Shown: piece by piece, positions 155-54,933 of the stretch
How the letters are laid out: the number at the start of each line of letters is the position of its first letter
Numbering within the stretch: the first letter of the stretch is position 1
From: Rhodoferax sp. TS-BS-61-7
Lineage (GTDB): Bacteria; Pseudomonadota; Gammaproteobacteria; Burkholderiales; Burkholderiaceae_C
Assembly: GCF_002943465.1 (NCBI RefSeq)
Contig: NZ_PTQY01000010.1
Coordinates: 1 to 64,000, forward strand
Direction: 5' to 3'
DNA: 64,000 nucleotides
Notes under the pieces: model-generated
Database searches by the model: none
The model's input: only the letters and a program-made list of their open reading frames with translations
Told to the model about the DNA's origin: nothing
Translations under genes and position numbers: made by a program

Positions 155-2629
<2,475 letters not shown>

Positions 2630-13017: not shown

Positions 13018-15447
13018 TCAGCGCAGCTTGCGACCCAGCTTGGCGCTGGGTTTGGCGGCGCCGGTCACCCGCGGGGGCAACCCGGTGTGCTGGGTCAGCA
13101 TGCGCCCCTTCACCGGTGCGGCAGCTTTGACTGGTGCCGCCGTCGAATTTTTCTTGCGTGCGCTCTGGTAACCCCCATCGCCCAGCGGCTGGAAGGTGGG
13201 AATCAGGTGGTGCTTGCCATTGCCCACCAAATCGGCACGGCCCATGGTCTTGAGCGCTTCGCGCAACAGCGGCCAGTTGTTGGGGTCGTGGTAACGCAAA
13301 AACGCCTTGTGCAGGCGGCGGCGCTTTTCACCACGCACGATGTCCACTGTTTCGTCGTCACTCTGCGCCGTGCGGTGCACACGTTTGAGCGTGTTGCGCC
13401 CGGAGTGGTACATCGCCGTGGCCGTGGCCATGGGGCTGGGGTAGAAAGTCTGCACCTGGTCGGCGCGAAAGCCATTCTTCTTGAGCCAGATGGCCAGATT
13501 CATCATGTCTTCATCGGTCGTGCCCGGGTGGGCGGCGATGAAGTAGGGAATCAGGAACTGCTTCTTGCCTGCTTCGGCACTGAACTTCTCGAACAGGGTC
13601 TTGAACTTGTCATAAGAACCGATGCCCGGCTTCATCATCTTGGTCAGCGGCCCCTGCTCGGTGTGCTCGGGCGCAATCTTCAGGTAGCCACCCACGTGGT
13701 GCTGCACCAGTTCTTTCACGTACTCGGGGCTCTTGACGGCCAGGTCGTAACGCAGGCCGGAGCCGATCAATATCTTCTTGATGCCCTTGAGCGCGCGCGC
13801 GCGGCGGTAGATCTTGATCAGCGGGTCGTGGTTGGTGCCCAGGTTGGAACAGATGCCGGGGTAAACACAGCTGGGCTTGCGGCAGGCGGCTTCGATCTCG
13901 GGGGTTTTGCAGCCCAGGCGGTACATATTGGCCGTGGGGCCGCCCAGGTCGGAGATGGTGCCGGTGAAGCCCTTGACCTTGTCGCGAATGTCTTCCACTT
14001 CTTTGATGATGGATTCTTCGGAGCGGCTCTGGATGATGCGGCCTTCGTGCTCGGTGATGGAGCAGAAGGTGCAGCCGCCAAAGCAGCCGCGCATGATGTT
14101 GACCGAGAAGCGGATCATTTCCCAGGCCGGGATCTTGGTCGCGCCGTCATGGCTGCCGTTTTCGTCGGCGTAGCTGGGGTGCGGACTGCGCGCGTACGGC
14201 AAGTCAAACACCAGGTCCATCTCGGCGGTGGTCAGCGGGATGGGGGGCGGGTTGATCCAGACGTCACGCGCCGTGGTGCCTTCGCCGTGCGCTTGCACCA
14301 GTGCGCGGGCGTTACCAGGGTTGGTCTCCAGGTGCAACACGCGGTTGGCGTGGGCGTAGAGGATGGGATCGCTCTTGACCTGTTCGTAACTGGGCAGGCG
14401 GATCACCGAACGGTCACGCGGTGGCACCTTGATCTTGCCCTTGGTACTGGCCAACGCGGGGTTGGCAAAGAATGTCAGCGGTGCGATGGCCGCGTTAACC
14501 TCAGGTTTTGAGTCTTTTTGGCCTCTAGCACCCGTGGAATCTGCGCGAACAGCTCCTGAATTAATAGCACCACCAGCCTCCGCAGCTTGGGCAACCGCCT
14601 TGGCTTCGTCTTCTTTGGCGCAAGTTGCGCCCTGCTCTGCCGCCTGCTCGCTGGTGGTCATGTAGGGGTTGACGTGGGCCTCCACGCGGCCCGGCTCGTC
14701 CACAGTAGTGGACGTAATCTCAAACCAACCCTTGCCGCTTTCATCGTCCGGGCGGCGCACAAAAGCGGTGCCGCGCACGTCGGTGATGTGCTCCACCGGT
14801 TCTTTGGCGGCCAGACGGTGGGCGATTTCGACAATCGCGCGCTCGGCGTTGCCGTACAGCAGCAGGTCGCACTTGGCGTCCACCACCACGCTGCGGCGTA
14901 CTTTGTCGCTCCAGTAGTCGTAGTGGGCAATGCGGCGCAAAGAGCCTTCGATGCCACCCAAGATGATGGGCACATCTTTAAACGCTTCGCGGCAGCGCTG
15001 GCTATAGACGATGGCGGCGCGGTCGGGGCGCTTACCGCCTATGTCGCCGGGGGTGTAGGCGTCGTCACTGCGGATCTTGCGGTCTGCGGTGTAGCGGTTG
15101 ATCATGGAATCCATGTTGCCGCTGGTCACACCCCAGAACAGGTTGGGCTTACCCAAGGCCTTGAAGGCCTCGGCGCTAGACCAGTCGGGCTGGGCAATGA
15201 TGCCGACCCGGAAACCCTGGGCCTCCAGCATGCGGCCGATCACGGCCATACCGAAGCTGGGGTGGTCCACATAGGCGTCACCCGTCACAAGAATGATGTC
15301 GCAGCTGTCCCAGCCCAGCACATCCATCTCTTTGCGGCTCATCGGCAAAAACTTGGCCGTGCCAAAACGGGCCGCCCAGTACTTGCGGTAGCTGGACAGC
15401 GGCTTGGCGGCGCGCGCGAAAAAGGAGACGTCGACTGGGGCGTTCAT
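13018..15447 (-). CDS. ygiQ: YgiQ family radical SAM protein
   Basis: This radical SAM enzyme has a UPF0313 N-terminal domain, and its substrate is not known. The [4Fe-4S] cysteines are C455, C459 and C462 ([10 protein letters not shown]) when counted from the ATG at 15447. The N-terminal domain shows [17 protein letters not shown], and the C-terminal tail is a basic DUF3362-like region. I chose the start that gives [24 protein letters not shown]; earlier codons run into the upstream intergenic region. At about 809 aa it is some 70 aa longer than E. coli YgiQ as I recall it. Part of the excess is a low-complexity stretch at about residues 275-320, of which residues 294-315 are a translated copy of the 65-bp repeat found elsewhere in this window. 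Confidence 0.92.
14504..14568 (-). repeat. 65-bp repeat, copy inside ygiQ (in frame)
   Basis: On the minus strand this reads GCTAT-N7-GGAGCTGTTCGCGCAGATTCC and then ACGGGTGCTAGAGGCC, matching the intergenic copies at 27730, 37130, 39811, 53306, 54867 and 23968 (reverse). It adds no stop codon and is translated as roughly [20 protein letters not shown]. Most other copies would carry a TAA or other disruption in the same frame, so this one appears to have been filtered for read-through. Confidence 0.75.
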
Positions 15448-23004: not shown

Positions 23005-23922
23005 GTGCCTTTTTTTACCCGTCCGCGCACCGTTTTTTTACTTGCCAGCCTGTGTTGCCTGCTTTGGGGCAGTGCCTACCCGGCCATCAAACAGGGCTAC
23101 GCGCTGCTGGCGATTGGCCGCAGCGACCTGGCCGCACAAATGCTGTTTGCCGGCTACCGTTTTGTCGGTGCCGGGCTGTTGCTACTGGTGTTTGCAAAGC
23201 TCTCGGGCAAATCGCTGGCACTGCAACGCACCCAGACCGGGCAGATGGTGCTGCTGGGTGTGCTGCAAACCACGCTGCAGTACATCTTTTTCTACATCGG
23301 CCTGGCGCACACCACCGGGGTCAAGGCGTCCATCCTCAATGCCTCGGGCGTGTTTTTCAGCGTGCTGCTGGCGCATTTTGTGTACCACAACGACACCCTG
23401 ACCTGGCGCAAACTGATGGGCTGCGCGCTGGGTTTTGCCGGGGTGCTGGCGGTCAACATCGGCGGGTTACTGGGCGGTGCGGCCACTGACGGTGAGTTCA
23501 CGCTGCTGGGCGAAGGGTTTATTGTGCTGGCGGCGTTGGTGCTGTCGGCGGCATCGCTGTATGGCAAACGTCTGTCCCAGGGCATGGACTCGGTGGTCAT
23601 GACCGGCTACCAGCTCGGCATCGGCGGTGTGGTCTTGGTGCTCATTGGCTGGGTGGCGGGCGGGCAGATTGCCGCGTTCACGCTGGCGCCCAGCCTGCTG
23701 CTGGTCTACATGGCCCTGCTGTCGGCCGTGGCGTTTGCGCTGTGGGGCGTGTTGCTCAAGTACAACCGGGTCAGCACCGTGGCGGTGTACAGCTTTTTGA
23801 TCCCCGTGTTTGGCGCCTGCCTGTCGGCGTTGTTTTTGGGCGAATCGCTGCTGGAGTGGAAATACCTCGTGGCCTTGCTGCTGGTCAGCGTGGGCATTTG
23901 GTGGGTTACACAAGAAAAGTAG
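23005..23922 (+). CDS. EamA/DMT family transporter
   Basis: This is an inner-membrane drug/metabolite transporter of about 305 aa with ten hydrophobic helices in two EamA repeats. The product starts at a GTG (23005), giving MPFFTRPRTVFLLASLCCLLWGS. The conserved LLWGSAYPAIK opening of the first repeat is seen, and the second repeat has AVAFALWGVLLKYNRVSTVAVYSF. It follows the acyltransferase by 25 nt. The substrate cannot be inferred. The last codons and stop fall in a sequence that resembles the end of the reverse-oriented 65-bp repeat. Confidence 0.85.
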   Translation: MPFFTRPRTVFLLASLCCLLWGSAYPAIKQGYALLAIGRSDLAAQMLFAGYRFVGAGLLLLVFAKLSGKSLALQRTQTGQMVLLGVLQTTLQYIFFYIGLAHTTGVKASILNASGVFFSVLLAHFVYHNDTLTWRKLMGCALGFAGVLAVNIGGLLGGAATDGEFTLLGEGFIVLAALVLSAASLYGKRLSQGMDSVVMTGYQLGIGGVVLVLIGWVAGGQIAAFTLAPSLLLVYMALLSAVAFALWGVLLKYNRVSTVAVYSFLIPVFGACLSALFLGESLLEWKYLVALLLVSVGIWWVTQEK

Positions 23923-23968
23923 CCACTGCGCCCATGGATATTGCGCGAGCAGCTACTAAATTCATAGC
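23910..23968 (-). repeat. 65-bp repeat, copy between convergent genes
   Basis: On the minus strand it begins GCTAT-GAATTTA-GTAGC and continues TGCTCGCGCAATATCCATGGGCGC. It occupies the gap between the EamA gene and the oppositely oriented OmpA-like gene. The distal end is degenerate and runs into the last codons and stop of the EamA gene. Confidence 0.7.
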
Positions 23969-23976
23969 AATTTGAC

Positions 23977-27713: not shown

Positions 27714-27729
27714 ATATCCGGCATGAACT

Positions 27730-27790
27730 GCTATTCAATTGATAGCTGCTTGCGCTTATTCCGCCTTGGCTAGAGGGGCTTTTGACACAT
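27730..27790 (+). repeat. 65-bp repeat, copy after the YqjK-position gene
   Basis: GCTAT-TCAATTG-ATAGC followed by TGCTTGCGCTTATTCCGCC and TTGGCTAGAGGGGC. This copy sits between the convergent YqjK-position and amidohydrolase genes, near the former. Its distal part leads into an open coding fragment described next. Confidence 0.75.
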
Positions 27791-37129: not shown

Positions 37130-37196
37130 ACTATCAAATCAGTAGCTGCTTGCGCATATTCCACGAGGGCTAGCTGCCAATTTTCCCCTCAAACCG
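37130..37196 (+). repeat. 65-bp repeat, copy between convergent genes
   Basis: ACTAT-CAAATCA-GTAGC then TGCTTGCGCATATTCCACGA and GGGCTAGCTGCCAATTTTCC. The final CCCTCAAACCG runs into the TGA stop of the facing tartrate-type dehydrogenase, so the element and the gene end overlap. Confidence 0.75.
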
Positions 37197-39700: not shown

Positions 39701-39810
39701 GGGAATCTCCTTGGGGGTGAGGTGGAAAGGCTTGCGTGTAGTGCCTAGCGTTTGCATTATGCGCAAGGGACAGACCGGCAGTATGACGCCGCCGAACATG
39801 ACTGCAATTT

Positions 39811-39877
39811 GCTATTTAATTTATAGCTGCTTGCGCAATATTCATAAGCGTTACAGGCCATTTTTGCATTCAAACGC
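39811..39877 (+). repeat. 65-bp repeat, copy between VOC and phnX genes
   Basis: GCTAT-TTAATTT-ATAGC then TGCTTGCGCAATATTCATAAG and CGTTACAGGCCATTTTTGC, ending CAAACG. This is the best-preserved copy and the only intergenic one not between convergent genes: both neighbours are on the minus strand. It marks the edge of the phosphonate cluster. Confidence 0.75.
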
Positions 39878-53305: not shown

Positions 53306-53371
53306 GCTATCTATTTCATAGCTGCTTGCGCAATATCCACGGGCTTAAACTGCCAATTTATCTCCCAAACA
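53306..53371 (+). repeat. 65-bp repeat, copy between convergent genes
   Basis: GCTAT-CTATTTC-ATAGC then TGCTTGCGCAATATCCACGG and GCTTAAACTGCCAATTTATC. It ends with CTCCCAAAC. The TTA of this end is the TAA stop codon of the facing GlxA-type gene. Confidence 0.75.
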
Positions 53372-54866: not shown

Positions 54867-54933
54867 GCTATGGTATTGATAGCTGCTCGCGCAATAGCCA
54901 TAAGCGCTAGAGGCCAATTTGGCACTTAAACAC
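54867..54933 (+). repeat. 65-bp repeat, copy between convergent genes
   Basis: GCTAT-GGTATTG-ATAGC then TGCTCGCGCAATAGCCATAA and GCGCTAGAGGCCAATTTGGC. It ends ACTTAAACAC; the TTAAAC part is the TAA stop of the facing FeS-type photolyase gene. Confidence 0.75.

Follow-up and report, generated by a model that had tools for sequence, protein, structure and literature searches.

A segment of the radical SAM protein YgiQ of Rhodoferax sp. TS-BS-61-7 is best explained as the predicted translation of one member of a high-copy, 65-bp interspersed repeat found in the Rhodoferax/Curvibacter group of the Comamonadaceae, an explanation to which, taken as a whole, we assign a probability of about 0.7. The segment matches the repeat and lies in frame, further copies are located in other host genes, the presence of the copy in ygiQ is linked with genomes that bear the family, and dialects of the repeat are common to most of the in-gene copies.

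A repeat copy is read in frame within ygiQ

The host gene occupies positions 13018 to 15447 of the minus strand of the window (the whole 64,000-nucleotide stretch that was analyzed), with an ATG at 15447 and an ORF of 809 amino acids, and its assignment to ygiQ is borne out by the NCBIfam model SAM_YgiQ (score, 832 bits; cut-off, 462). The original prediction was that the repeat at 14504 to 14568 of the minus strand is read, in frame and free of stops, as YgiQ residues 294 to 315, and both the ORF translation and the profile match confirm this; nhmmer and the R1 model (a sequence-only model built from 44 copies, with the ygiQ copy left out) place the copy at 14504 to 14569 of the minus strand, in the sense orientation and in repeat frame +1. 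When the ygiQ copy was masked in training, an nhmmer profile built from copies in the same genome detected it with 66.6 bits (E = 3.5e-19), so that a chance match is excluded without recourse to self-training. Its R1 score of 70.8 bits is the highest among the 150 copies scored in this genome.

The copy is contained in a hypervariable linker, approximately residues 268 to 343 (14419 to 14646, minus strand), that was delimited from alignments of orthologous loci from which four rows with wrong ORFs (L024, L033, L045 and L048) were left out. The radical-SAM cysteines C455, C459 and C462 (14062 to 14085, minus strand) are located beyond this linker, as had been predicted, and all three are invariant in a 36-sequence YgiQ alignment (A2). 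A PDB sequence search with YgiQ returned matches in the radical-SAM core only, and an AlphaFold model derived from 36 sequences has a mean pLDDT of 48.9, too poor for placing the insert.

Other repeats were also observed in this linker. Within ygiQ of L012 (2278-2518), the linker contains a different repeat that has three further copies of 29 to 31 nt in its genome, and an inverted CCTCACCC-type repeat is present in L049 (742-1042), L058 (2278-2593) and L145 (1222-1585). The peptides encoded by these other repeats are VRPEPVEG and SPHPxPLPxGEG-like. A search for the CCTCACCC-type repeat elsewhere in G015 found none; outside ygiQ, it is present in L139.

The repeat family in the Rhodoferax genome

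The repeat is about 65 nt long, aligns in register and is nearly free of indels, with invariant blocks among variable columns and a mean GC content of 48% (138 copies from this genome). An internal indel was found in 1 of 140 copies from this genome, a count from which local alignments ending at indels may hide some; in the relatives G003, G007 and G026 there were none in 20 copies each, and in G009 there were five in 20. A BLAST search of positions 14480 to 14600 against the whole genome gave at least 40 matches among 145 candidates, all with E ≤ 3.7e-8, and an R1 search of the same genome scored at least 150 copies among 2,739 candidates, the matches listed having at least 50 bits.

The window harbors seven copies, the one in ygiQ included, or about one per 9 kb; by extrapolation from this density, the genome would hold several hundred. 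The other six are located at 23915 to 23969 on the minus strand (44.9 bits; outside genes by the codon test) and, on the plus strand, at 27729 to 27781 (weak and partial, 23.5 bits), 37131 to 37194 (58.9 bits), 39810 to 39875 (46 bits), 53306 to 53370 (44.6 bits) and 54867 to 54931 (51.9 bits). The copy at 39811, which begins GCTATTTAA, indeed has a stop in the ygiQ frame (GCT ATT TAA), as predicted.

No Rfam family matched the window at gathering score. A conserved hairpin or other RNA structure was considered and rejected: there is no covariation (404 of 500 shuffles scored as high), the pair 5-15 is broken in 28 of 44 copies, and RNAalifold retains only three pairs in the repeat.

Noncoding copies favor gene ends. 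Classified by the direction of the neighboring genes, 109 such copies comprised 59 tandem, 33 convergent, 5 divergent and 12 unclear cases; a crude control of 400 random noncoding-like 65-mers comprised 69 convergent, 68 divergent, 18 tandem and 245 unclear. REPs, a class of bacterial repeats, are associated with a RAYT transposase. The RAYT-type domain Y1_Tnp has one match in this genome (G000:C12:223407-223733), and the 3.3-kb stretch around this sole match contains a diverged copy of the repeat (L151:1121-1178, 30.6 bits). Y1_Tnp as a mobilizing partner is only a lead.

Copies of the repeat within other genes

The sample examined for coding copies comprised 143 distinct copies with E ≤ 1e-5, taken from the window and 119 stretches of the same genome; because a stretch was taken if it resembled the ygiQ copy or R1, the sample is biased toward consensus-like copies. 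A copy was considered coding if it was stop-free and contained in an ORF and if codon usage marked both of its flanks as coding in one and the same frame. Twenty-six of the 143 copies qualified, and removal of three with 24 to 30 bits left 23 copies (≥40 bits) in 22 genes. Neither the strong-copy counts nor the dialect test described below include the weak candidates of 24 to 33 bits, namely L114, L154 and L182 in this genome and L284 and L290 in G009.

The hosts named by NCBIfam or Pfam include the CCA-adding enzyme, KdtA, GluQRS, penicillin-binding protein 1C, UvrD, XdhA, ComEC, PgeF, a LysE-type transporter, 3-hydroxyisobutyryl-CoA hydrolase, MiaA, a urate oxidase N-terminal protein, SelO, an SbmA-type ABC transporter, ProA, a fatty-acid-hydroxylase/YhhN protein, GcvT, an AmiC-type amidase and an FAD-dependent protein. 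Twelve host proteins, YgiQ among them, score above the curated NCBIfam cut-off; KdtA, UvrD (cut by the stretch) and the LysE-type, SbmA-type and AmiC-type proteins score below it. At the cut-offs used, L171, which is Tex by eye, had no NCBIfam match, and L231, ImuB-like by eye, had no NCBIfam or Pfam match. In the ImuB-like ORF of L231, two copies in opposite orientations (471-532 and 1301-1359) are both predicted to be translated.

The 23 in-gene copies use three frames only: (+,1) in 13 cases, (-,2) in seven and (+,2) in three. The numbers of copies, out of the 143, in which each frame is open are 98 for (+,1), 87 for (-,2), 22 for (+,2), 22 for (-,1), 13 for (+,0) and zero for (-,0); thus, one frame per strand is often open, which would allow the repeat to survive at coding sites. 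In seven further entries, the flanks are coding in one frame and the repeat contains a stop (one of these, L095, is also listed as coding via another frame), and in 12 entries, the flanks are coding in different frames of one strand. Coding copies showed no overall difference from the others in closeness to the consensus (Mann-Whitney P = 0.48; 0.16 for copies of at least 46 bits). Among 117 noncoding copies, frame (+,1) is open in 76, compared with 60.5 (SD, 5.2) in column shuffles, an excess that we do not claim as selection; the other five frames are within about 1.2 SD.

In four relatives, 15 of the 79 copies with enough flanking sequence are coding (two of the 15 score below 40 bits), and they use the same three frames, five each. 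By eye, seven of these 15 are in hosts shared with the genome under study: the ImuB-like protein (L333/L231), XdhA (L313 and L292/L118), UvrD (L343/L004), urate oxidase (L308/L099), SelO (L279/L170) and ProA (L280/L175). The ygiQ copy, originally presented with no other such case known for this element, thus turns out to be one of many, with 22 host genes in this genome and 15 of 79 sampled copies coding in the four relatives.

Two further ORFs of this genome have the repeat at their N-terminal end. In L119 (approximately 253-303, minus strand), a copy opens a lipoprotein-like ORF (MFATKSGAARAILTGAIAAFLLMGC...), and because the copy starts the ORF, the signal peptide appears to be repeat derived. 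In L104 (1574-1640, minus strand), the repeat spells an N-terminal extension of an ORF that looks, by eye, like an Era-type GTPase, and this extension ends in GQKDSKPEV, nine residues that are identical in YgiQ.

The ygiQ copy occurs in genomes that carry the family

Of 39 genomes of the genus, 17, this one included, bear the family (at least 72 R1 matches at E ≤ 1e-6); of the other 22, two have one and six matches, respectively, and 20 have none. In an order-wide search with stricter filters, in which at most 17 candidates were scored per genome, 10 of 300 genomes had a match at E ≤ 0.001. These ten comprise five of the nine same-family genomes listed (this one included, and G208 with a single match at 1.9e-4) and five others with one match each, at 1.3e-4 or weaker.

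The linker of ygiQ could be read in 27 of the 39 genomes; the remainder are G013, G031 and G033, which bear the family, and nine without it. The copy is present in 12 of the 14 readable family-bearing genomes, this one included (G015 and G029 lack it), and in none of the 13 readable genomes without or nearly without the family (Fisher test, 6e-6 with kinship ignored). The alignment of related YgiQ proteins proposed originally thus shows, within the genus, the insert only where the genome carries the family. Among 80 named loci, a clear in-gene match was found in L073, L050, L009, L029 and L031 and a weak one in L081, and a profile search found no repeat match in ygiQ of the gammaproteobacterial loci among them. 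In the loci examined, no distant genus was found to have the same residues without a DNA repeat.

On a YgiQ tree (linker left out, quick search, 80 rows with ORFs picked by blastp), the copy is present in 17 rows, one of them weak (14 bits), and this label requires seven changes, of which at least four are forced by strongly supported branches. A single old insertion into ygiQ is therefore not established. All 16 scored ygiQ copies have the same orientation and frame (L009 and L130 represent one locus), and L051 contains, by eye, an apparent below-threshold remnant.

Species dialects of the repeat extend into genes

Between this genome and eight relatives, the insert has a pS of 0.12 to 0.42 and a pN of 0.08 to 0.39, compared with 0.41 to 0.54 and 0.03 to 0.07, respectively, in ygiQ outside the linker. 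Four pairs of relatives gave 0.18 to 0.36 and 0.15 to 0.26 for the insert and 0.43 to 0.57 and 0.01 to 0.04 for the gene, and the rest of the linker has a pS of 0.51 to 0.84 and a pN of 0.04 to 0.31. In all 12 pairs, which are nonindependent and offer 16 to 18 synonymous sites each in the insert, pS is lower and pN is higher in the insert than in ygiQ outside the linker, indicating that the insert is better conserved at the DNA than at the protein level.

These values bear on the possibility that the YgiQ residues are ancestral and functional and that the DNA repeat was seeded from them or resembles them by chance, a proposal that we consider highly improbable. The R1 rank of the ygiQ copy is consistent with it, being first in this genome and in G001, third in G020 and G030, fifth in G026 and seventh in G007, although the copies in G034, G009 and G003 are weaker (44.3, 32.4 and 31.2 bits); the high rank in those six genomes could reflect some peptide constraint, which would also count against the favored explanation. 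However, the residues are missing from ygiQ of every readable congener in which the family is absent or nearly so (13 of 13) and from that of the gammaproteobacterial loci examined, the repeat has at least 150 copies in this genome, and the pN of the insert exceeds that of the gene.

The repeat comes in species dialects, and a copy inside a gene tends to resemble the dialect of the genome in which it lies. Each copy was scored against profiles of the noncoding copies of each genome, with leave-one-out for the noncoding copies themselves. Noncoding copies were assigned to their own genome in 85 of 103 cases (30 of 40 for this genome, sampled from 117) and coding copies in 34 of 48, a number that none of 20,000 label shuffles reached (mean, 11.5; maximum, 25). 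By genome, the coding assignments were 14 of 23 here, 5 of 6 in G007, 6 of 6 in G009, 3 of 5 in G003 and 6 of 8 in G026; at positions shared by at least two genomes, 19 of 28 coding copies fit their own genome. Conversely, 14 of the 48 preferred the profile of another genome, including gcvT and miaA of this genome and ygiQ of G003. The clearest dialect is that of G009, in which a GCTCCCGCACTATCC variant is present in ygiQ and miaA and partly in gcvT. For example, YgiQ contains GAAPALS in G009 and GAVRADS in this genome, and SelO contains ELLPHYPRA and ELLAHIPRG, respectively.

Such dialects might also arise if the repeat were a functional DNA or RNA signal or a binding site, a fast-evolving partner of which selects the same changes at all copies, those in genes included, in a way similar to the dialects of DNA uptake sequences. 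This explanation, which overlaps the favored one, appears rather unlikely. The scarcity of indels (1 in 140 copies here, 0 in 20 in each of G003, G007 and G026, and 5 in 20 in G009), the invariant blocks among variable columns, the rarity of noncoding copies between divergent genes (5 of 109, versus 68 of 400 in the crude control) and the occurrence of dialect changes in particular columns all fit a shared partner, but a binding site of 65 bp would be long and a hairpin has no covariation support.

Repeat copies may replace native codons

The repeat had been thought to add about 22 residues to YgiQ, which does not hold when linkers are measured from NPY to the KV (or KM) ahead of the next conserved block. 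The linker with the copy spans 82 residues in this genome, 65 in G026 and 63 in G025, compared with 69 in G018, 66 in G029 and 57 in Acidovorax, all of which lack the copy; the net lengthening is about 13 residues and, in some relatives, none.

Other hosts present a similar picture. The GcvT segment reads FPGADQILAAINHPAVGSRKRVGL and FPGADKILATLDHPVAGSRKRVGL in the repeat-free G018 and G032, respectively, and FPGATKILAALADSTGASGQKGTKKRVGL in this genome, a net gain of five residues; the ILA core is kept, its codons being ATT TTG GCG or ATT CTG GCG without the repeat and ATA CTA GCT here, a replacement of native codons. MiaA gains about five residues relative to the same stretch in G018. The CCA enzyme is longer by about ten residues net, and its version of a conserved motif that is TMNAIA in 1miv reads TINSIA. 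The repeat may have replaced native DNA at once or may have been inserted and then trimmed.

The GcvT copies of this genome and seven relatives share the same start codon and a largely common 5' half that is unlike the family consensus, and one old event at this locus is therefore favored. This observation is of importance for the alternative of repeated independent insertion, in which the repeat lands preferentially in the ygiQ linker and in a few other loops, so that each lineage bears its own recent copy in its own dialect. The seven changes on the YgiQ tree (at least four of them forced by strongly supported branches), the low pS of the insert, the match of in-gene copies to their own dialects and the other repeats hosted by the ygiQ linker in other lineages (L012; the CCTCACCC type in L049, L058 and L145) can all be accommodated by such insertions. 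The shared start codon and nonconsensus 5' half of the GcvT copies, however, and the identical orientation and frame of all 16 scored ygiQ copies argue against them, and we regard this alternative as unlikely.

Under the favored explanation, that of a translated family member, the ygiQ linker, being tolerant, would have received a copy at the latest in the ancestor common to G003 and the clade of this genome. This copy would have been kept, being stop-free in that frame and tolerated by the linker, and would since have been rewritten along with the other copies, through gene conversion or another process with the same homogenizing effect. With such entry, retention and rewriting, the YgiQ repeat peptide would be mainly a by-product of a DNA element rather than a conserved protein module. 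The repeat itself is most likely mobile or formerly mobile, with continuing homogenization among copies; the homogenizing tracts would need to be short because GcvT keeps a largely locus-specific 5' half in all eight repeat-bearing genomes read.

Comparison with known repeat systems

The Rickettsia palindromic elements (RPEs) are short interspersed repeats that are translated in frame in several unrelated Rickettsia genes. The repeat described here resembles them in being in frame inside unrelated genes (23 copies in 22 genes) and differs in clade, in sequence and in having no conserved palindrome. DNA uptake sequences, of 10 to 12 bp, have species dialects and copies inside genes, two features that the repeat shares, but it is 65 bp long. 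The parallel with RPEs drawn in the original prediction holds, but not as the sole precedent: in-frame short repeats are already known also as intragenic REPs (PMC3733652) and BRE (PMC3110155).

The main text of the REP study (Di Nocera 2013, PMC3733652) mentions RPE-1, RPE-4 and RPE-6 and describes GTAG/CGTC REPs as high-copy palindromes of 20 to 40 bp that bear a GTAG or CGTC tag and are mostly located near gene ends, with some wholly within ORFs in several species; it contains no mention of Polaromonas, Rhodoferax, Delftia or Acidovorax. The repeat described here, in contrast, is 65 bp long and has no conserved hairpin. REPs are defined in the RepRanger description (PMC12306157) as palindromic and stem-loop forming, with 14 to 40 nt in E. 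coli, seldom overlapping coding regions and located near gene ends. The 65-nt repeat has neither the palindrome or stem-loop nor this length; as to coding overlap, its noncoding copies are more often convergent (33) than divergent (5; n = 109), yet 23 of 143 copies are in frame inside genes. BRE is described (Hot 2011, PMC3110155) as an interspersed repeat of beta-proteobacteria, including Comamonadaceae, that also occurs in genes; in Bordetella, it is 75 to 91 bp long, is partly tandem and has a mean GC content of 69% (63.7 to 78.9% in full-length copies), and none of the genomes listed there has more than 29 copies. With 65 bp, 48% GC and at least 150 copies, the repeat described here is distinct from Bordetella BRE in length and GC content, a separation made by description rather than by sequence.

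A search of the open-access literature, mostly outside subscription papers, found nothing on this 65-bp element or on dialects inside genes.

Implications

Protein segments are usually read as shaped by function and descent, whereas here a DNA repeat spells a segment in at least 22 predicted proteins of one genome, and this segment tends to vary with the species dialect of the repeat. In G009, for example, proline is found where this genome has arginine (YgiQ and MiaA) or alanine (SelO). We suggest tentatively, at odds slightly short of even, that the repeat family writes protein: a shift of dialect would tend to change the same repeat-encoded residues across about two dozen unrelated proteins per genome, and copies could replace native codons rather than only lengthen the protein. 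If this is correct, amino acid change would be concerted across unrelated proteins, gene trees and selection tests would be misled locally, and the family would provide a system for testing the entry of repeats into genes and their tolerance at such sites.
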